Assembly: GCA_947449135.1 (NCBI GenBank)
Contig: CANFQO010000012.1
Span: forward strand, 1 to 62,135
DNA: 62,135 nucleotides
Reading direction: 5' to 3'
Source: Planctomycetaceae bacterium
Lineage (GTDB): Bacteria > Planctomycetota > Planctomycetia > Pirellulales > UBA1268
Shown here: piece after piece, positions 7,761 to 46,883 of the stretch
Layout of the letters: the number at the start of each line of letters is the position of its first letter
Numbering within the stretch: the stretch's first letter is position 1
Notes under the pieces: generated by a model
Told to the model about the DNA's origin: nothing
What the model saw: only the letters and a program-made list of their open reading frames with translations
Databases searched by the model: none
Position numbers and translations under genes: made by a program

Positions 7761-7933
7761 CCGTTCACGCATCAGCGGCTACGGACGCCCCGTTGAGCCC
7801 ACGCGCGGCGGACCGCTGCCGCTACATCTTCTCCATCTTGCCCGACGCGAACCCGCGGCAGAACCCTACCGGCGGACGACCGGCATGACCGATCCAACCG
7901 GTCGTGACGGTATTCTTCACGGAGGCAGCAACG

Positions 7934-9487
7934 ATGGTGGTACGACCCAGTGCATTCCGGCCAATCGCTGGATTCAGCACGATCGCCAAGACAACCCTGA
8001 CATCCCTTGCCCTCGCCGGCGGCATCGCAGCCGCTACGAGCCCGGCATTCGCCGCCCCGAACGGCTGGAGCAGCAGCACACAAAAGTCGGTGCTCGTCCA
8101 GTCGAACGGCCGCCGCGCACCCACGCCTTACGCCAGCCAGTCGACCAGCCCGGGATATTCTCAGGGGGGCCCGGTCGAAGAGATCGGCCCTGGTCAGCTC
8201 GCGACCGATTCGTTTGACGGTGCCGTCCAGGGGGAGGACGCAATCGTCGGCTCACCCAACGAGAGCTACTCCGACGGCGGCTATGACGACGGCAGTTCGG
8301 CGCCCGGCTACAGCAGCGCCATGGCACAGGACGGCACCTACGATAGCGCCGTCGAGGGCGTCTATGGCAGCCCCTTCAACGGCAGCTACGAAGGCGGCTT
8401 TGAAGGCCAGGAGCCCGGTCCGCTCCCCTGCGGTGAACACTGCAACGGCAACTGCAATGCCTGCCAGCAGGGCTCCTGCGGGCTTCCCGAATGGCGATAC
8501 AACGCCGAATGCGAGCCGATGGGATTGCTCCAAAAGATGTATCTGCTCCACCGCGGCATGAAGAGCGACGGCTGCTGGACCGGCCGGGTCGACGCCCTGA
8601 TCCTGTCGCGAAATGCCCCCGGCAACCGCCCGCTCTATTCGTTTAATTCGGCCGCTGGTGGCACCGCGCTCAACGCCAACCAGCTCGAGAGCATCGCGGC
8701 CGTCGGCCCGCGGCTGTCGCTGTTCCATAAAGACAGCTGCGGCAAGGCCTCGTGGGAAGGAACCTACATCTATTCCGGTAGCTTCGTGGCCAATAAGAGC
8801 CTGACCCCGTCGCTCGCCGGCTACCAGCTCGCCCCTCCGGGCATCTACGGCATCGACGCGCCAAATCCCGACGGTCTCGATGGAGCCACCGCCCGGCTGA
8901 CGTCGTCGCTGCAAAGCGCGGAATTGAACCGCCGCTGGGCCTGGGGCTCCTGCACACAGTTCTTGGCCGGCTTCCGCTGGCTGCAGTGGCAGGAGACGCT
9001 CGCCATCAACGACGCCTACGCTGTCGGCACGCCAAACTTCGGCCAGGATGTCTACACGACGGGCTGCTACAACAATCTCTTCGGTGGTCAAATCGGCCTC
9101 GACACGGCCCTCTGGTCGCCCTCGAAATACTTCCGGCTCGAAGGGCTGGTGAAGGCAGGGGCTTACTACAACAGCGCCTACCAGTCATCGAGCTACCAGA
9201 ATTATGTGGGAGGGGCCCCCTTCGAAGGGAATTCGGTGTCAGCCGGCCAGTCTCCCGCCGTCTGCTCCTTCGCTGGCGAACTGGGGATCACGGGCGTTGT
9301 CCCGGTCTGCTGCAATGTCGACTTCCGGTTCGGCTACTTCGGCCTCTGGCTGACATCGCTCGCCCAGCCGGCCAACCAGCTCAGCAACCAGGTGCTGATC
9401 CCGGCCGCCCCGTCCTATGGCTCGCTGACGACCAACGGCAACGTTGTGCTCCAAGGACTTTCGCTGGGCCTCGAGGGCCGCTGGTAG
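7934..9487 (+). CDS. BBP7-like outer-membrane beta-barrel protein
   Basis: A 517-residue exported protein. I chose the ATG at 7934 because GGAGG (7921-7925) lies about 8 nt upstream; the in-frame GTG at 7904 has no such site. Residues 1-41 are a long signal peptide ending near SPAFAAP. A Gly/Ser/Tyr-rich low-complexity stretch follows, then a cysteine cluster (CGEHCNGNCNACQQGSCG), then alternating hydrophobic/aromatic segments typical of outer-membrane strands, with the terminal GLSLGLEGRW matching a barrel-closing end. The layout fits the planctomycete BBP7 (DUF1551) outer-membrane family. It lies between two giant surface-protein genes, so a role in the outer surface is plausible. The family assignment was made by eye. 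Confidence 0.65.
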   Translation: MVVRPSAFRPIAGFSTIAKTTLTSLALAGGIAAATSPAFAAPNGWSSSTQKSVLVQSNGRRAPTPYASQSTSPGYSQGGPVEEIGPGQLATDSFDGAVQGEDAIVGSPNESYSDGGYDDGSSAPGYSSAMAQDGTYDSAVEGVYGSPFNGSYEGGFEGQEPGPLPCGEHCNGNCNACQQGSCGLPEWRYNAECEPMGLLQKMYLLHRGMKSDGCWTGRVDALILSRNAPGNRPLYSFNSAAGGTALNANQLESIAAVGPRLSLFHKDSCGKASWEGTYIYSGSFVANKSLTPSLAGYQLAPPGIYGIDAPNPDGLDGATARLTSSLQSAELNRRWAWGSCTQFLAGFRWLQWQETLAINDAYAVGTPNFGQDVYTTGCYNNLFGGQIGLDTALWSPSKYFRLEGLVKAGAYYNSAYQSSSYQNYVGGAPFEGNSVSAGQSPAVCSFAGELGITGVVPVCCNVDFRFGYFGLWLTSLAQPANQLSNQVLIPAAPSYGSLTTNGNVVLQGLSLGLEGRW

Positions 9488-29181: not shown

Positions 29182-30225
29182 ATGAACAACCTCCCCATCA
29201 ATCATCCGCTCCTGCAACTGGCCCGGCAGTTTGCCGACGCGCTCTTCTCGCCGCTGGGCGGCCTGCTGGCCGCAGCCGCCGCGGTCTTCCTGCTCGGCTG
29301 CGCCTACACGGTCGATCAGGCGGAGCAGGTCGTGATCACGCAGTTTGGCCGACCGGTCGGGCAGCCGATCAACGTGGCTGAAGAGGGTGCCGGCCTGCAC
29401 TTTAAGCTGCCGTTCGTACAGACGGCGAATCGGTTCGAGAAGCGCATCCTGCAATGGGACGGTCCGCCGAATGAGATGACGACCCGCGACAAGCTGTATG
29501 TCGTCGTCGACACCTTCGCCCGCTGGCGGATCGCCGACCCGCTGAAATACTTCGAAAGCCTCCGCGACGAGCGGAGCGCCATGTCGCGGCTCGACGACAT
29601 TATCGGAAGCGAGACCCGCAACGTGGTCGCCCGCCACGACCTGATCGAAGTGGTGCGTTCCGACAAGAGCCGGCAGCCGGAGCAGGATGCGGCACTGGCT
29701 GACTCAGGAACTGCCGTGGGCACGCTGCCGCCGATCGAGTTTGGCCGCAAGGAGCTTGAGCGTGAGATCCTCGCGGCCGCGCGGCCGAAGGTGGGGCTCT
29801 GGGGGATTGAACTGCTCGATGTTCGTGTGAAGCGGCTCAACTACAAGGCGGGCGTGATCGAGAAGATCTACGACCGCATGATCTCAGAGCGGATGCAGAT
29901 CGCGGAGCGGTTCCGCTCCGAGGGCGCGGGCGCCGCGGCCAAGATCGAAGGCCGCAAGGACAAGGATCTGCAGCGAATCCAGTCGGAGGCCTACCGGCAG
30001 GTGCAGGAGATCAAGGGCGACGCCGACGCGCAGGCCTCCGAGATCTACGCGACCGCCTACACGGCCAGCCCGAGGGCCGCCGATTTCTACGCGTTCGTGA
30101 AGACGCTCGACACGTATAAAGCGACGCTCGGCCGCGACAGCACGTTGATCCTCACGACCGACAGCGACCTGTTCCGGCTGCTCAAGCGGGTCGATGGCCG
30201 TAGTCCCAACCAGCCGGCTCCCTGA
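29182..30225 (+). CDS. hflC: HflC, membrane SPFH protein
   Basis: 347 residues. A hydrophobic segment (LLAAAAAVFLLGCAYTV) precedes an SPFH domain (QAEQVVITQFGRPVGQP). The conserved stretch LDVRVKRLNY, the arginine-rich RMISERMQIAERFRSEG and a coiled-coil with KIEGRKDKDLQRIQSEA are typical of HflC. It partners HflK around FtsH. It sits directly downstream of hflK in a likely operon. Confidence 0.9.
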   Translation: MNNLPINHPLLQLARQFADALFSPLGGLLAAAAAVFLLGCAYTVDQAEQVVITQFGRPVGQPINVAEEGAGLHFKLPFVQTANRFEKRILQWDGPPNEMTTRDKLYVVVDTFARWRIADPLKYFESLRDERSAMSRLDDIIGSETRNVVARHDLIEVVRSDKSRQPEQDAALADSGTAVGTLPPIEFGRKELEREILAAARPKVGLWGIELLDVRVKRLNYKAGVIEKIYDRMISERMQIAERFRSEGAGAAAKIEGRKDKDLQRIQSEAYRQVQEIKGDADAQASEIYATAYTASPRAADFYAFVKTLDTYKATLGRDSTLILTTDSDLFRLLKRVDGRSPNQPAP

Positions 30226-41108: not shown

Positions 41109-41275
41109 CTGCGGCCGATGCCGCAGCGGCGTTGTCGTGAGGGCCAAGCCATCCAAGGCCTTTTCCAGCCTGCGCACTTCCGGTTCACAGAGAGCAGGTC
41201 TTGGGTTGGTGCTCACTGGGATCGGGATCCCTTAGGTCCACCAACACCCCGTCTCACGCCCTCCCAAACCCCACC
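41109..41275. other. Intergenic region with a 7-bp hairpin
   Basis: No gene is visible. A perfect short hairpin, CTGCGGC-CGAT-GCCGCAG at 41109-41126, follows the cytochrome stop directly, but it has no T-run, so its terminator role is uncertain. The remainder leads into the tRNA-derived repeat. Confidence 0.4.
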
Positions 41276-41385
41276 GAGTTTGGGTTCGGAATGGGTTTGG
41301 CACTTTGTCCTCTCCGAAAATCGTCAAAAACCACTAGGCCCGGTGTGATTCGAACACACGACCAAGGGATTATGAGGACGAAAGC
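41276..41385 (-). repeat. tRNA 3'-half repeat, copy 1
   Basis: Nt 41335-41376 are identical to the 3' 42 nt of the tRNA at 46811-46883, stopping in its anticodon loop. To the left, about 59 bp matches the sequence downstream of that tRNA with two substitutions and one indel. To the right, nine bases (GACGAAAGC) match copy 2 but not the intact tRNA. Confidence 0.9.
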
Positions 41386-41442
41386 AGCTGATTGCGAACC
41401 GATTGGGGATTTCGGGGTGGTCTGAGTTTCGCGTGAGGATAC

Positions 41443-41868
41443 TTAATCCCAGATACGGCCCACTCCGTACTGTTCAAACACGGAGTCGGCACTGACGATC
41501 GGGATCCCTTCTACGAGACATTGAGCCGCCAGAAGCCTGTCAAAAGGATCTCTGTGATGGAACGGCAACGCCATCTGCCGGTCAGCGACTTCCAGGGTGA
41601 TGGGCGACACCACCAGGGCAAGATCAATCAAGGCTTTTTCCATCCATGTGCGGTACGGCAGGGACAGAGAGAGCTTTCCCAACCCAACCTTGATGGAGAG
41701 TTCCCAGATGGTTCCGACACTGACGAGCAGCTCGTTGGCGGGGTCTTCCAAAACAGCGATGGCACGAAGCCCAAGTTTGCGTGGGTCATCCAACGCCCAG
41801 ATCAACGAGTGGGCATCAACCAGTGCCTCATCGCGTGTACTCCTTGAAGTCCTCCAATGGGGCATCAA
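41443..41868 (-). CDS. VapC-like PIN toxin with disrupted start
   Basis: The open frame spans up to 141 residues and contains a full PIN domain: VDAHSLIWALDDP, WELSIKVGLG, HHRDPFDRLLAAQ and SADSVFEQYG supply the acidic residues of a VapC RNase. The natural start, however, appears to be the ATG at 41831, which overlaps the antitoxin stop (ATGA) and has AAGGAG 8 nt upstream; its frame (MRHW...) stops after 9 codons. One added base after ATGAGGC would give MR-LVDAH. As it stands, translation must begin at 41868 or 41865, inside the antitoxin. Probably a frameshifted toxin. Confidence 0.7.
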   Translation of the reverse strand: MMPHWRTSRSTRDEALVDAHSLIWALDDPRKLGLRAIAVLEDPANELLVSVGTIWELSIKVGLGKLSLSLPYRTWMEKALIDLALVVSPITLEVADRQMALPFHHRDPFDRLLAAQCLVEGIPIVSADSVFEQYGVGRIWD

Positions 41869-42064
41869 AGTCTGGAGCCATATACAGCACGGAACCCTTC
41901 ATCGTTCCCAACTGCCTGGCTGTCTTCTTGGCACCAACGGGGGTGGGAACAATTCGGGCGACCGGTTGGTCGTTCTCGGTGATCACTACCTCTTCGCCCG
42001 GCGAAAGTCGATGAATGAGGTCGGTCAGCCTCGTTTGTGCCTCTTGGATAGTCACCGTTGTCAT
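41828..42064 (-). CDS. Phd/YefM-family antitoxin
   Basis: 78 residues, with AAGGAG upstream of the ATG. The N-terminus MTTVTIQEAQTRLTDLIHRL and GEEVVITENDQPVARIVP match Phd/YefM DNA-binding antitoxins, and the C-terminal LEDFKEYTR is the usual toxin-binding tail. It precedes the VapC-like gene with a 4-nt overlap. The antitoxin appears intact even though the toxin start is disrupted. Confidence 0.85.
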   Translation of the reverse strand: MTTVTIQEAQTRLTDLIHRLSPGEEVVITENDQPVARIVPTPVGAKKTARQLGTMKGSVLYMAPDFDAPLEDFKEYTR

Positions 42065-42187
42065 GTCCCAATCTCCTTTTCCACCATTCTAGCACGAGGT
42101 GAGACGTGTCGTTCCGTGGACGCACGGCCGGATTTCCTAGGGGTAGAACAAGTCTGCCTGGCCTCCACAGCGGCTCTTTCTGACTGG

Positions 42188-42907
42188 CTACAGGCCGTTG
42201 TAGGCCCACTCCGGCAGAAGTCGCAGAAGCCATGCAATGAGTCGCCATCGTTTTGTCACGTAGGCGTGTTTGTGCCGGCGGCGGATCGCTCGGAGGATCT
42301 GCTCGCAGGCGACATCGACAGGGGCGACCCAAAAGAGACCGTCCCCCTTCGCCATGGCAGTATCAATGAATCCCGCCTGGATATCGGTGATGTGGATGGG
42401 GAGCTTTTGCTTAGCGACCTTGTGTCGCAAAGCCTGCAGGTATCGAGCAACGAATGCCTTCGACGCCCCATAGGCCGGAGCACGTCCATCGGCCTTGATG
42501 CCGGCGATGGACGAAATTCCGACGAGGTGGCCGCTGCCCAGTGCGATGAAGTGTCGCATCGCCACGCCGGCCATCGCTGCGAATCCGGTCACATTGACCG
42601 CAATCGTCTCGGCTTCCGGAGGCCAGGCAAAGTCGGGATTCTCATGCCCGATACCAGCCGTAATGATCACGAGATCAACACCGCCCATGTCCTGAAGCAG
42701 ATCGCCAAGGATTTCCATCGCAGAGCGGCAGTCGGCGATATCTGCCACGCGAGTGAAGGTCGTGGTCGGAAGCGAGGCGGCGAGCATTCGCAGGTTCTCA
42801 TCCCGCCGTGCGACGAGGCCGAGGGTGTAGCCCTGCTGAGCGAGTGCCTTCGCCAAACCGGCACCGATCCCCGAAGACGCCCCAATGATGACGGCGGACT
42901 GGCCCAC
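42188..42907 (-). CDS. Short-chain dehydrogenase/reductase
   Basis: 239 residues from a GTG at 42907, chosen because AAGGA lies about 7 nt upstream; the more distal ATG at 42976 falls inside the tRNA-linked repeat. The Rossmann motif is GASSGIGAGLA (TGxxxGIG class), then DLVIITAGIG, GISSIAGIKA and the catalytic YGASKAF (YxxxK). It should use NAD(P)H on an unknown substrate. The C-terminus has a hydrophobic stretch (WRLIAWLLRLLPEW), which may bind membrane. The first 60 nt of this gene are duplicated at 46662-46721. Confidence 0.85.
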   Translation of the reverse strand: MGQSAVIIGASSGIGAGLAKALAQQGYTLGLVARRDENLRMLAASLPTTTFTRVADIADCRSAMEILGDLLQDMGGVDLVIITAGIGHENPDFAWPPEAETIAVNVTGFAAMAGVAMRHFIALGSGHLVGISSIAGIKADGRAPAYGASKAFVARYLQALRHKVAKQKLPIHITDIQAGFIDTAMAKGDGLFWVAPVDVACEQILRAIRRRHKHAYVTKRWRLIAWLLRLLPEWAYNGL

Positions 42908-43038
42908 GACTCGTTCCTTTTTACCCGACGGCACCCGAGTTATGGGTTCGGAATGGGTTTGGCACTTTGTCCTCACCGAAAATCGTCAAAAACAACTAGG
43001 CCCGGTGTGATTCGAACACACGACCAAGGGATTATGAG
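42848..43038 (-). repeat. 191-bp direct repeat, left copy (SDR start plus tRNA 3' half)
   Basis: Matches nt 46662-46852 with two substitutions over 191 bp (offset 3,814). It contains the first 60 nt and ribosome site of the dehydrogenase, the intergenic flank, and a 42-nt tRNA 3' fragment (42997-43038). After the tRNA part, GACGAAAGC follows, as in copy 1. Confidence 0.92.
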
Positions 43039-43177
43039 GACGAAAGCCCACTTGGACTAAATCTTCAGAAAAACCGAGCGGTTTCCGGTTCCGCCCGTGC
43101 AGGCGTGCGGTTTCGGAAAAAAGCTGGACCACGTCACAACCTTCTCGGAATCGTTTGCAAATCGTCTCGTTTTGCCC

Positions 43178-43199
43178 GTTATGGGGTTAACCCCATAAC
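43178..43199. repeat. Perfect 22-bp palindrome
   Basis: The sequence GTTATGGGGTT is followed directly by its exact reverse complement AACCCCATAAC. No T-run follows on either strand, so it is not an obvious terminator. It lies 20 bp past the end of the 62-residue minus-strand gene. It may be a protein-binding site. Confidence 0.7.
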
Positions 43200-43218
43200 C
43201 GCCACTGAAGCCCGCCCC

Positions 43219-43407
43219 CTACTTCTTCGGGATATAGGCGTTGACGCCCACGATCACTTTCTTGCCGTCCACCACGCAGTCGGTCTCTTTGTTGCCGTAG
43301 GTCGATGCGACCACCAGCGTCTTGCCGCTGGCAGACTTCTCAGGTTTGGCGTTCAAGGGGATCCTGAGAACAAGCTCGTCACCTACGATTTTTGCTGAAA
43401 ACGCCAT
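43219..43407 (-). CDS. 62-residue hypothetical protein
   Basis: Start ATG 43407 (MAFSAKIVGDELVLRIPLN), with AAGGA about 11 nt upstream. It is a small beta-rich protein: alternating hydrophobic residues in VGDELVLRIPL, LVVASTYGN and KKVIVGVNAYIPKK suggest three or four strands. I do not recognise the family. It lies inside the tRNA-bounded cargo segment, divergent from the DUF4160/DUF2442 pair. Codon pattern and length support a real gene. Confidence 0.55.
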   Translation of the reverse strand: MAFSAKIVGDELVLRIPLNAKPEKSASGKTLVVASTYGNKETDCVVDGKKVIVGVNAYIPKK

Positions 43408-43502
43408 TATTCCAGTCCTTGGACGGGTTGGGGTGAAGATCGAATCGCCCAGTCTACGACTCTCGATTAGAATTCCGGGCAGTAGTAGCACGGAACACTT
43501 GC

Positions 43503-43741
43503 ATGACACCAACAGTCTTTCGGGAGGGACCATCCGGTTCTTTTTCTTCTCCAGGGAAGAAACAAGAATGCACGTTCATGTGTCCCATCCGGATGGCGAG
43601 GCGAAGTTTTGGCTGAAGCCTGAAGTCGAGCTGGCAACCCAGACGGGCTTGGCGAAGCACGTTGTCGGTGAGGCACAACAACTGGTCGAAGACCATCTGC
43701 AGGAGATCATCGATGCCTGGGACAAGCACTTTCCCGGTTGA
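43503..43741 (+). pseudogene. DUF4160 gene with a 1-nt frameshift
   Basis: The ATG at 43503 opens MTPTVFREGP, the standard DUF4160 start, then the frame is lost. The continuation RFFFFSREETRMHVHVSHP, DGEAKFWL and IDAWDKHF lies in another frame. Adding one base near nt 43533 (ATCC to ATTCC) joins them into a complete protein of about 80 residues. DUF4160 genes commonly pair with DUF2442, which follows here with a 29-nt overlap. A short in-frame product from ATG 43570 is possible. Confidence 0.75.
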
Positions 43742-43970
43742 AGTCACCAACGTGTCGCGGCACGGCTTGTGGCTATTGGTCGGTGACGAGGAATTGTTCC
43801 TGCCATTCGAGCAGTTTCCGTGGTTTCGTGACGCCAGTATCGAGGAGATTTCGGTCGTTGAGCGTCAGACCGCCGACCATCTGTACTGGTCCCTCCTCGA
43901 TATCGACTTGTCTGTTGAGTCGATTCGCAATCCTGCCGCGTTTCCCCTCGTTGCCAGGAGGCAGCGATGA
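43713..43970 (+). CDS. DUF2442 protein
   Basis: 85 residues from the ATG at 43713, with AGGAG (43701-43705) about 7 nt upstream. The text VEVTNVSRHGLWLLVGDEE, FLPFEQFPWFRDA and LYWSLLDIDLSVESIRNP is typical of DUF2442. These proteins pair with DUF4160 in predicted toxin-antitoxin-like modules; which partner is toxic is not settled. It appears full length while the DUF4160 gene in front is frameshifted. Confidence 0.85.
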   Translation: MPGTSTFPVEVTNVSRHGLWLLVGDEELFLPFEQFPWFRDASIEEISVVERQTADHLYWSLLDIDLSVESIRNPAAFPLVARRQR

Positions 43971-44629
43971 GCATGTCGATCTGCCGTTGCCGCAAGCCAA
44001 CGGCTATGACCACGGATACATGGTGGTCCGGATCGTGGGGCTGACAGCCTTTCGCCTCCGGGCTATTCTCTCGCGACATGTACGGATCCTTCGCGCAACA
44101 AATTGCCATCACGACGTATGGCAACGCCTTCCTCGCCGGGATGCGTGGCGTGGGAGAAGTTCTATCCGTCCAACGACACGTTCACATATTGTGAATCCGT
44201 CCGGTTCGTCGACCGAACACCGGACAAAAGCTGGGAGCAGCGTCAGCCGCACGCTAATTAAGCTTCGAGGCGATACGTCAGCAGGGGGAAGCGTTATAGG
44301 CGGTGGCGTTCTTGCTGCAGGTGGATACGGCCTTGCAACAGCTGGGGCATCAGTGGCGGCGTCAATCGCAGCTTCGAATGCTGCTGCCTTAGCAGCTTAT
44401 ACGGCCGCCACTGGTAGTGCAGCTACATCGGCATCCTTGTTAGGGCTAGCGGGAATGGCGGCCGACGCCGTGGCCTCGTCGCCGGCGGATTCTGCTACAG
44501 GATGCTCTTGGACGAATCATGCATCGCTCGTGAGTCGCAGAATTCACCGGCTCCTGCGCGTGCCACCGACCGGCTCCACACCGTTCGGATATGCTGTCAG
44601 CAATCGACACGGTTCGCAGGGAATGTCTC
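43971..44629. other. Gene-poor region with possible decayed coding
   Basis: No complete gene fits. A frame near 44079 reads MYGSFAQQIAITTYGNAF; a different frame from the ATG at 44118 encodes 47 residues including EKFYPSNDTFTYCESVRF; a third, at about 44270-44480, is a Gly/Ala-rich hydrophobic stretch (GGGVLAAGGYGLATAG). Bases here are less GC-biased at third positions than in neighbours. It may be the remains of one or two transferred genes. Confidence 0.4.
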
Positions 44630-45397
44630 ATGAAAATCGTCATCCACGAGGATCGGGCGGCCATGGGTAGGGCGGCGGCTGCCGAGGCGGCCATCACCCT
44701 CAAGGCGGCGTGCGATCGCAAGGGGTCGGCCACCCTCGTCGTCGCCACGGGCTCGTCGCAGTTCGAGGTGCTGGCGGCGCTTGGCACCACGGCGGGCATC
44801 CCATGGGATGTCATCACCATCTATCACCTCGACGAATATGTCGGCCTCTCACCCGACCATCCGGCGAGCTTCCGCCGCTACCTGCGGGAGCGGTTCATCG
44901 ACCGGCTGCCCATCCGGCCCAAGGCTTTTCATGAGGTTGGCGTCGAGGCCGATCCGGTGGCCGAATGCCGCCGGCTCGCCGCACTCGTGCCGCCGGACGA
45001 TTTTGATGTGTCGATGATCGGCATCGGCGAAAATGCCCACGTGGCATTTAACGATCCGCCCGCCGACTTCGAGACGACGGCACCGTATCTGGTCGTGTCG
45101 CTTGACGAACCGTGCCGACGACAGCAGGTGGGAGAAGGCTGGTTTCCGTCGCTCGAGAGCGTGCCCACGCAGGCGCTGTCGATGTCGATCCGCCGGATTC
45201 TCGCCAGCCGCTCGATCGTTTGTTCCGTGCCCGATCAGCGGAAGGCCGAGGCGGTGCGGGCTGCCGTCGAGGGACCGCTCACTCCCAGCGTGCCCGGCTC
45301 AATCCTGCGAACGCACCCACATTGCAGCCTGCACCTCGACCGCGAAGCGGCGTCGCTGTTGTCGGACTTTCATCGCGGCCAGGCTGCATCGGCCTGA
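44630..45397 (+). CDS. nagB: Glucosamine-6-phosphate deaminase NagB
   Basis: 255 residues from the ATG at 44630, with AGGGAA upstream. It converts glucosamine-6-phosphate to fructose-6-phosphate and ammonia in the cytoplasm. Motifs: VVATGSSQFEVLAAL (phosphate-binding loop), IYHLDEYVGLS (catalytic Asp), MIGIGENAHVAFNDPP (catalytic His and Glu/Asp loop) and a C-terminal VPGSILRTHPHCSLHLD. nagA follows 41 nt downstream, giving the last two steps of GlcNAc-6-phosphate use. Confidence 0.9.
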   Translation: MKIVIHEDRAAMGRAAAAEAAITLKAACDRKGSATLVVATGSSQFEVLAALGTTAGIPWDVITIYHLDEYVGLSPDHPASFRRYLRERFIDRLPIRPKAFHEVGVEADPVAECRRLAALVPPDDFDVSMIGIGENAHVAFNDPPADFETTAPYLVVSLDEPCRRQQVGEGWFPSLESVPTQALSMSIRRILASRSIVCSVPDQRKAEAVRAAVEGPLTPSVPGSILRTHPHCSLHLDREAASLLSDFHRGQAASA

Positions 45398-45438
45398 AGC
45401 CCGCGACCGTGCATGGCTTTGCACGACGGAACATATTC

Positions 45439-46365
45439 ATGACACATCCCCTCGACCTTCAGCTCAACGGCTTCAAGGGCGTCGACTTCAACTCCAACGA
45501 TCTCGGTCTCGACCTCATGCGGCAGGCCTGCGCCGCGGTGCGCCGTGACGGTGGCGGCCGGATGCTCGCCACCATCATCACCGATCGGCTCGACCGGATG
45601 ACGGCGAGAATCGAAAGGCTCGCGGCACTGCACGCCGAGGACGAGTCGGTTTGCGAGGTGATGGCAGGCATCCACATCGAGGGGCCGTTCATCAGCCCGC
45701 TGCCCGGCTTTGTGGGCGCCCATCCGCACGAGCACGTCCTGCCGGCGAGCGTCGATGCCGCGAAGCGGCTGGTCGATGCGGGCCGTGGGCTCGTGAGGCT
45801 CGTGACGCTCGCGCCCGAGCACGATGCGGGCCACGCCACCACCCGGTGGCTTGCCCAGCAGGGCATTCTCGTGTCGGCCGGTCATTGCGATCCGTCACGG
45901 GCCGTGCTGAACGACGCCATCGATGCCGGGCTCTCCTGCTTCACGCATCTGGGCAACGGCTGCCCGCTCATGCTCCATCGCCACGACAACGTCATCCAGC
46001 GTGTGCTGGCTGCCGATCGATTGCGTTGGGTGATGGTGATCGCCGACGGCGTGCACCTGCCGCCGATGGTTCTACGAACCATCATCCGCCACGTAGGGAT
46101 CGATCGCATGATCGCCGTGACCGATGCCACGGCCGCTGCCGGCATGGGGACGGGCCGTTATCTGTTGGCGGGGCAGGACGTCGTGGTGGGTGAGGAAGGG
46201 GCGGCGTGGGCTCCGGATCGGTCGCACCTCGTCGGGTCGACGGCGACGATGGCGGATATCCGTGGCGTGTTGTGCCATGCCGTCGGTCTCAGTGACTCCG
46301 ACGTGGATCGACTCACGGTCGAAAACCCGATGCGGGCGATCAGTGTTGAGGCAAGCATGTCGTGA
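45439..46365 (+). CDS. nagA: N-acetylglucosamine-6-phosphate deacetylase NagA, short form
   Basis: 308 residues from the ATG at 45439 (MTHPLDLQLNGFKGVDF), shorter than the usual 380 or so because the N-terminal beta-sandwich half seen in most NagA proteins is absent. The barrel carries the usual metal and catalytic residues: GIHIEGPFIS (Glu), VSAGHCDP (His), CFTHLGNG (His) and VTDATAAAG (catalytic Asp). It removes acetate from GlcNAc-6-phosphate to feed NagB, its upstream neighbour. The C-terminal strand returning to the missing domain is also brief. Confidence 0.85.
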   Translation: MTHPLDLQLNGFKGVDFNSNDLGLDLMRQACAAVRRDGGGRMLATIITDRLDRMTARIERLAALHAEDESVCEVMAGIHIEGPFISPLPGFVGAHPHEHVLPASVDAAKRLVDAGRGLVRLVTLAPEHDAGHATTRWLAQQGILVSAGHCDPSRAVLNDAIDAGLSCFTHLGNGCPLMLHRHDNVIQRVLAADRLRWVMVIADGVHLPPMVLRTIIRHVGIDRMIAVTDATAAAGMGTGRYLLAGQDVVVGEEGAAWAPDRSHLVGSTATMADIRGVLCHAVGLSDSDVDRLTVENPMRAISVEASMS

Positions 46366-46383
46366 GAGTGGCTCTGAGTACCG

Positions 46384-46661
46384 TCACTTCGTCGTGATGT
46401 CGATGTCGAAAACGGTGCCGCTCCGCGGCACGTCGCATGTCAGCGTGGAACTGCCCGTGCGATACTCCTTGGGGATTGTGATGCCCGCCAGCACCGGCGG
46501 CAGCATGACATTGGTGGTGCCCTCGTCACCGGGCAACGCAATGGACACCCCGTATATGCCTTTGGGGATGCCCTTCATGCCCGGCTTGAGGTACATCACG
46601 ACAGTCCCTGATCATTCGTGACGCCGACGCAGGGCGTCGAATCCGCTCCTTGAGGCGTGAA
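46384..46661 (-). pseudogene. 3' remnant of a transthyretin-like protein gene
   Basis: Reading on the minus strand from 46661: FTPQGADSTPCVGVTNDQG, then a stop, with the continuation MYLKPGMKGIPKGIYGVSIA, here split as KGIPKGIYGV and PPVLAGITIPKEYR, in another frame. Together these resemble the C-terminal half of planctomycete small lipoproteins with a transthyretin/carboxypeptidase-regulatory-like fold. The 5' half is missing because the 191-bp repeat begins at 46662. So the gene is both truncated and frameshifted. Confidence 0.6.

Positions 46662-46883
<222 letters not shown>

Follow-up and report, generated by a model that had tools for sequence, protein, structure and literature searches.

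Behind the intact tRNA gene of the window (the whole stretch of 62,135 nucleotides analysed here) lie two further copies of its 3' half, both breaking off at an identical position within the anticodon loop. From comparison of sequences across relatives, we consider it quite probable that these displaced halves are remnants of attachment (att) sites, left by integration into the anticodon loop with tandem accretion of small, non-autonomous units. Six features can be read directly: a shared core, a shared element end, an order of accretion, units in which no integrase was found, an association with toxin-antitoxin (TA) genes, and identity between genera that exceeds that of the hflC gene. The break pattern is that of an established class, anticodon-loop integration with tandem accretion, as far as the available part of the Islander paper describes it (PMC4383910).

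The tRNA gene, its displaced halves and the two units

The intact gene, with anticodon CAT, occupies 46811-46883 on the minus strand (ARAGORN; Rfam RF00005, 71 bits), and nothing else in the 41-47 kb part of the window reached an Rfam gathering score. ARAGORN labels it Met from the anticodon; alignment corrects this, since 62 of 73 bases are identical to E. coli ileX [tRNA-Ile(CAU)] and 52 of 73 to metU, and the gene is thus probably a tRNA-Ile2 of the lysidine type.

Copy 2 (42997-43038) and copy 1 (41335-41376) lie on the same strand as the intact gene (minus), and each matches its 3' half at 42 of 42 bases. That both copies leave the tRNA at one and the same base had been claimed before and is borne out; it is the first base of the anticodon loop. 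Also as claimed, both then run into GACGAAAGC: nine bases are equal (41377-41385 and 43039-43047) and the tenth differs. Read on the tRNA strand, both copies give ...GCTTTCGTC followed by CTCATAATCCCTTGGTCGTGTGTTCGAATCACACCGGGCCTA, where the intact gene has ...AGGGGA before the junction. The joined sequence TATGAGGACGAAAGC occurs exactly twice in the window (41371-41385 and 43033-43047, both on the plus strand) against 0.06 occurrences expected by chance, and no third window match appears when up to two mismatches are allowed.

The first-pass annotation had argued against simple duplication from the right flank, and on that side it was correct, the copies diverging after nine bases; it had overlooked the other side, where 61-149 bp are shared past the tRNA 3' end. 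Copy 2 and the intact locus form a 191-bp repeat of 98.95% identity (42848-43038 and 46662-46852), and copies 1 and 2 form a 113-bp repeat of 97.3% that includes the nine bases (41274-41385 and 42935-43047). Because these repeats extend past the tRNA 3' end, each copy combines the 3' half with a left-end module roughly 60 bp long, which we call F. Module F adjoins a tRNA half at all three places in the window, on the minus strand each time: 46749-46810 at the left end of unit 1, 42935-42996 at the left end of unit 2, and 41274-41334 behind copy 1. It is common to copies 1 and 2, to relatives and to a unit at tRNA-Leu(CAA) in genome G003 (handles of this kind denote the genomes compared, G000 being this one). 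The start of a short-chain dehydrogenase (SDR) gene follows at two of the three places. The module behind copy 1 could be the remnant of an eroded older unit or the original flank. The copies, then, would not be the bare tRNA halves that they had been taken for; they appear to be the att sites of two stacked units that share a left-end module.

Unit 1 (3814 bp, 43039-46852, minus strand) adjoins the tRNA and extends from the anticodon loop of the intact gene to copy 2; unit 2 (1662 bp, 41377-43038, minus strand) sits behind unit 1, between copy 2 and copy 1. Both have an attL and an attR, as CIMEs (cis-mobilizable elements) do: copy 2 would be attR of unit 1 as well as the left end of unit 2, and copy 1 attR of unit 2. 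The intact tRNA serves as attachment site, and its present 3' half would come from unit 1. On the tRNA strand (minus) the right ends of unit 1 (43039-43047) and unit 2 (41377-41385) both read GCTTTCGTC, which we term the type A end. Unit 1 contains a perfect 22-bp palindrome (43178-43199), about 130 bp from its right end.

Three genes of unit 2, all on the minus strand, are recognizable: an SDR gene (42188-42976, coordinates being those of the longest ORF; PF00106, 3.5e-33), a 78-aa Phd/YefM-type antitoxin (41828-42064), whose homologues in G058 and G009 match PF02604 (9.2e-8 and 5.3e-7), and a VapC-like PIN toxin gene (41443-41868; PF01850, 8.1e-12). The adjoining Phd-type antitoxin and PIN protein belong to known type II TA families. 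In the window VapC, an ATG at the start position used in relatives gives nine codons and then a stop, so that the frame looks shifted near its start relative to theirs, and the VapC copy in G009 is broken; for this reason these particular copies may be fixed in place.

Behind its module F, unit 1 carries a 5' fragment of an SDR gene (46662-46748, minus strand), near-identical to the SDR start of unit 2 within the 191-bp repeat. Its other genes lie on the plus strand. The DUF4160 gene (43505-43741, start uncertain; PF13711, 3.5e-15) and DUF2442 gene (43662-43970; PF10387, 7.4e-14) are putative TA partners, which we take to form a toxin-antitoxin pair. Further cargo consists of a glucosamine-6-phosphate deaminase-like (NagB-like) gene (44591-45397; PF01182, 3.3e-20; NF001684, 2.4e-42, below its cut-off) and an N-acetylglucosamine-6-phosphate deacetylase-like (NagA-like) gene (45268-46365; TIGR00221, 1.5e-49, below its cut-off, with no Pfam match). 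No integrase was found in either unit by the PF00589 profile or by tblastn, no transfer families among the larger ORFs scanned, and PADLOC returned nothing for six window proteins. Genome G000 has five PF00589 matches, none of them on the window contig.

The gene hflC (29182-30225) and the tRNA are convergent and about 17 kb apart in the window, and 11 kb apart in G002; in G036, G058 and G023 they are co-directional and separated by less than 2 kb. These differences in spacing and orientation indicate that the region has been rearranged in this genus.

The break point in relatives, the candidate crossover region and integrases

Among relatives, which are mostly draft MAGs, blastn matched the tRNA region in 93 of 98 genomes (this one included), and among the matches listed many extra partial ones stop at the same base. 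The junctions read from this search show a single principal break point, and the element-side ends fall into several classes: type A (GCTTTCGTC and close variants), type B (...GGCTCGTCTCCA), type C (...CTGTCCGCA and similar) and others. In two exceptions the match begins inside the half, 10 bases in for G052 (L042 6368) and 16 bases in for G027 (L054 4971). Site-specific recombination in the anticodon loop, proposed from the window alone, thus gains from a recurrent break with varied partners. Three type B ends (L042, L046, L050) adjoin a gene with the motif HEWAHALAW and not a TA pair.

When 396 genomes of the order were searched with a pattern, a hand count gave at least 27 displaced 3' halves in 23 genomes. 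This is a lower bound: one of the four bases was disallowed where the pattern begins, and halves altered anywhere in their first 18 bases would be missed. The pattern could detect breaks at this base only, whereas the blastn reading could detect others. The own family accounts for 15 of the 27, spread over 13 genomes, and other families for 12, spread over 10. A fuller 3' half was seen for 24 of them; in G330, G367 and G158 the half was seen over 18 bases only. On contig C1 of G174, two displaced 3' halves lie about 380 kb from the intact tRNA on that contig, a spacing that points to rearrangement after integration.

The check that the annotation had proposed, a search of relatives for the joined sequence, was run on the same set and found the exact type A joint in five of the 396 genomes, this one included. 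A looser pattern hit six of 72 family genomes, among them G108, which we dropped as a chance match in a low-complexity gene; G017 has a variant of the joint. At displaced halves, the joint or a close variant is present in five other genomes (G009, G036, G049, G058 and G017) from three other genera, which supports a common incoming end. A named genome collection yielded 12 junction matches, seven of them chance (15-21 of the 42 bases of the half) and five real (38-42 of 42); the real ones are contigs of those same five genomes and add no further cases. Viral contigs gave 16 matches to the short junction, none of which continues into the tRNA 3' half (14-23 of 42 bases), and these were rejected.

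Displaced 5' halves narrow the site of exchange. Lone 5' halves in G031 (L045 6937) and G049 (L071 8300), both near hflC, run ...GGGGACTCATAA and then leave the tRNA for other sequence. With the 3' halves fixing the left edge and the 5' halves the right, the shared core is the anticodon loop CTCATAA (46846-46852, minus strand), our candidate 7-bp crossover region. Seven bases is a suitable length for a tyrosine recombinase's overlap region. G031 has an integrase gene (PF00589, 2e-8) immediately upstream of its intact tRNA, about 25 kb from the 5' half, and from this layout some elements seem to restore the 5' half and not the 3' half.

Integrase-like genes are also found behind this tRNA. In G103 a gene of 393 codons lies antisense directly behind an intact tRNA of the same kind; its protein scores below PF00589, with only a weak SAM-like match, and we call it integrase-like because it is 44% identical to a G017 protein that matches PF00589, the G017 integrase spanning only the C-terminal half of the G103 protein. 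PF00589 matches behind this tRNA occur in G156, G202 and G195:C541. G038 has a C-terminal piece of an integrase gene directly behind the tRNA, and G017 has one behind an F end. The seven-base core and the antisense integrase-like gene of G103 both support the proposal of anticodon-loop recombination. No relative of the F-class integrase was found in G000 at E 0.001, and consequently no helper was identified in this genome. An excisionase-like protein beside the G036 type A end served as query for an autonomous type A element; it has one close relative, in G049 (75%), and that match led no further.

Two other tRNA genes of G000 adjoin integrase genes: on contig C5 (L178 2581-2655) a second CAT tRNA, unlike the first and presumably initiator-like, is overlapped by an antisense integrase gene, and on contig C19 (L177 3074-4345) an integrase gene overlaps the end of a tRNA-Arg(CCT) gene.

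Accretion, toxin-antitoxin cargo and other tRNA sites

The order of units at this tRNA forms a series. Behind the tRNA of G029 stands a unit with a DUF433-type gene. G009 has an additional SDR-VapBC unit between tRNA and DUF433 unit, and G058 has two units in that place, an RHH-PIN unit and then a VapBC unit, before its DUF433-type unit. It follows from this series that new units enter next to the tRNA.

The inner units are also more alike between genomes than the hflC genes are. With its counterpart in G009, which belongs to another genus, unit 2 shares 92.2% identity over 1664 bp, against 76.9% for hflC, and with that in G058 it shares 90.6% over 842 bp, against 79.7%. Between G009 and G058 the unit shows 89.2%, hflC 76.2% and the outer DUF433 unit 74.9%; hflC is a single gene and as such a thin control, and the outer unit provides a second. 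The tRNA half before the SDR-VapBC unit differs at 4 of 42 bases between G000 and G009, each following the other halves of its own genome. As the sequences stand, simple carriage of the half by the unit would fail to explain this, and replacement or homogenisation after arrival would account for it. Intact and displaced halves of any one genome have the same T-stem variant (46811-46852 and 42997-43038; L066 5141, 6802), and this holds even where the intervening unit looks recently acquired.

TA-type genes stand beside all eight type A ends and beside one of twelve other ends at the same tRNA (G001, DUF433/DUF5615); the twelve were taken from family loci, and those besides G001 were judged by reading translations. 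Fisher's test gives p 7e-5, the rows being related, and 0.05 after a crude collapse. At the type A ends the genes are Phd-VapC (three cases), RHH-PIN (one, with a weak RHH match), DUF4160/DUF2442 (one), Gp49 with an HTH protein (two, the HTH match weak and scanned in G049 only) and a PemK toxin for which no antitoxin family was found (one). Nine of 13 VapC homologues at 74% identity or more lie beside a tRNA gene or fragment; for the other four (G108, G020, G053 and G036) no tRNA fragment was found in the 260 bp read downstream, and in G036 a 99% VapC copy lies 5.7 kb from tRNA-Asn. Small integrase-less units that by inspection have no TA pair also occur here, in G023 (AraC-type) and G011 (HupE).

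Similar units were found at two other tRNAs, where the TA units measure 0.89-1.14 kb. At tRNA-Asn(GTT), a unit of 887 bp in G023 and 886 bp in G109, two genera, encodes a Phd-type antitoxin and VapC and ends in a T-loop fragment of tRNA-Asn. The two are 98.6% identical over 844 bp, while their 5' flanks are 71-84% identical (long stretches 73-84%) and their 3' flanks show no similarity in the stretches fetched. In G052 two tRNA-Asn units with different PIN pairs stand in tandem. G099 and G108 have one tRNA-Asn unit each with a further PIN protein; this protein scores below the PIN_3 cut-off, and its partner, where scanned, matched no family. A search with the tRNA-Asn 3' fragment matched 50 of 72 family genomes, with two fragments within 1.1 kb of each other at six places in five genomes, and G049 has three fragments spaced 11-13 kb apart.

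At tRNA-Leu(CAA) of G003, a 1144-bp VapBC unit lies between two displaced halves with the break at CTCAAAA (L146, tRNA strand 7891-9035), and its left end has module F. The presence of F behind a tRNA-Leu(CAA) half ties the module to the elements, not to any single tRNA. Related integrases lie beside tRNA-Leu(CAA) in L135-L138.

In the VapC tree the Ile2 units cluster together, and so do the Asn and Leu units together. The twelve att-bounded units measured at the three tRNAs range from 886 to 3814 bp, and no integrase was found in them by tblastn with four integrases (best E 0.077 over 54 residues).

Origin and movement of the units

We propose that two elements entered one tRNA gene in succession. 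A tyrosine integrase would exchange strands inside the seven-base loop CTCATAA; the incoming element's own tRNA 3' half would restore the gene, and the old 3' half would end up on the distal side of the insert, against the element's right end GCTTTCGTC. The next element would enter the restored tRNA, so that the newest unit adjoins it. On the likeliest account, larger islands have been reduced to non-autonomous mini-elements with two att sites and a TA pair, sometimes with other cargo, and such mini-elements would be moved in trans by the integrases of tRNA-targeting islands, the TA pair keeping them in place. An integrase acting in trans, excision, a route between cells and a stabilising role of the TA genes are what we infer from the layout; no excision product, circular form or movement of any unit was seen. 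That the units themselves move in trans is a reading toward which we lean slightly.

A more specific version, that tRNA-addressed cassettes of about 0.9-1.7 kb, with a TA pair between att sites, hop between genera of the family by means of integrases in trans and stack at Ile2, Leu-CAA and Asn, we offer tentatively, as somewhat short of an even bet. It draws on related VapBC pairs at all three tRNAs and a common left-end module at two of them.

The main rival reading agrees with ours on integration, accretion and non-autonomous units, but holds that the units are simply leftovers of islands that lost their integrase and other genes and are themselves immobile, their similarity between genera dating from transfer of the larger islands and the TA pairs surviving because their loss is harmful. 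This route is described in the CIME literature, in the part of it available (PMC5704250), and agrees with the C-terminal integrase pieces of G038 and G017, which adjoin the tRNA and an F end respectively, with the decayed look of the TA genes of G000 and G009, and with the bare 5' SDR fragment of unit 1. It has to contend, however, with the 887/886-bp tRNA-Asn unit, which has the same ends and 98.6% identity in two genera between divergent flanks, and with unit 2, which has the same ends in G009 at 92%; decay would need independent reduction to identical ends each time. Island decay accounts for many of the observations and may be how the units arose, but the cases with the same ends and high identity between genera speak for later movement of the units, and we hold decay without mobility to be doubtful as a full account, if with a real chance of being right.

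Second, the tRNA 3' region could have been copied as a segment, through homologous recombination or template switching and without a site-specific recombinase. The up to 149 bp that the copies share past the tRNA half speak for such a segmental duplication, but a single break base across different contexts, the existence of displaced 5' halves, the classes formed by element-side ends and the left module behind another tRNA in G003 make it very improbable. Third, contigs of several relatives do end near these repeats, but a misjoining of repeats in MAG assembly is hardly credible given type A junctions in five other assemblies (G009, G036, G049, G058 and G017) and the general pattern in the single-contig genome G202.

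Integration in the anticodon loop with accretion, the reading we prefer, places the units near several known systems. In the available part of its paper, Islander lists 2083 islands with an anticodon-centred attP, 159 with 5' fragments, and 125 tandem arrays (at least two each), and demands an integrase gene per island (PMC4383910). Such islands have the displaced 3' tDNA fragment, its orientation shared with the regenerated tRNA, and the anticodon-loop break (PMC4383910), but the window units are small and had no integrase that we found, and for lack of an integrase they fall outside the Islander definition. By structure the units are nearest to CIMEs in tandem accretion, as these appear in the parts of the sources available (PMC5704250, PMC3146451). 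The ICESt1-related CIMEs of Streptococcus thermophilus likewise keep attL and attR, have lost their integration genes and stack at one site, according to the portion accessible (PMC5704250); the units here differ in their size of 0.89-3.8 kb, their cargo of mostly TA genes, their use of three tRNAs and their apparent ability to cross genera. The ssrA islands of Dehalococcoides also stand in tandem at a single RNA gene, and some of them lack integration genes; what is available of their description proposes 15 islands without an integration module as possible cis-mobilizable elements (PMC3146451); they have a serine recombinase and reductive dehalogenase cargo (PMC3146451), whereas here the integrases are of the tyrosine type and the cargo is TA.

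The TA cargo invites two further comparisons. Chromosomal integrons also carry small TA units in tandem, as cassettes that may stabilise the array. Integrons are listed among TA carriers in the accessible part of a further source (PMC12548467). Here, however, a tRNA serves as the site and every unit comes with a piece of it, and insertion at the tRNA core argues against an integron cassette. In Shewanella putrefaciens, the 48-kb island CGI48 at tRNA-Trp was excised upon expression of integrase and excisionase, and a TA system (HipAB) stabilises this composite tRNA-targeted island, as reported in the text available (PMC8978831); in the units described here, by contrast, the TA pair is often almost the whole unit. 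A search of the literature found no TA-only, integrase-free units bounded by tRNA fragments, a weak negative because subscription journals lie mostly outside its coverage.

The distinctive traits of these CIME-like units are their minimal size, their dominance by TA genes and their presence at several tRNAs. Island searches that demand an integrase gene, as the Islander filter does by its partly available account (PMC4383910), would miss such units. Their stacks record arrival order, so that the role of TA genes in the retention or loss of units can be tested across strains. If movement in trans is real, a bare TA pair with two att sites would suffice as a mobile element, and tRNA gene fragments beside TA loci would be a simple marker for finding such units. 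If the cassette reading is also right, these units would represent, outside integrons, a counterpart of TA cassette arrays, and would rank with the smallest known integrative elements.
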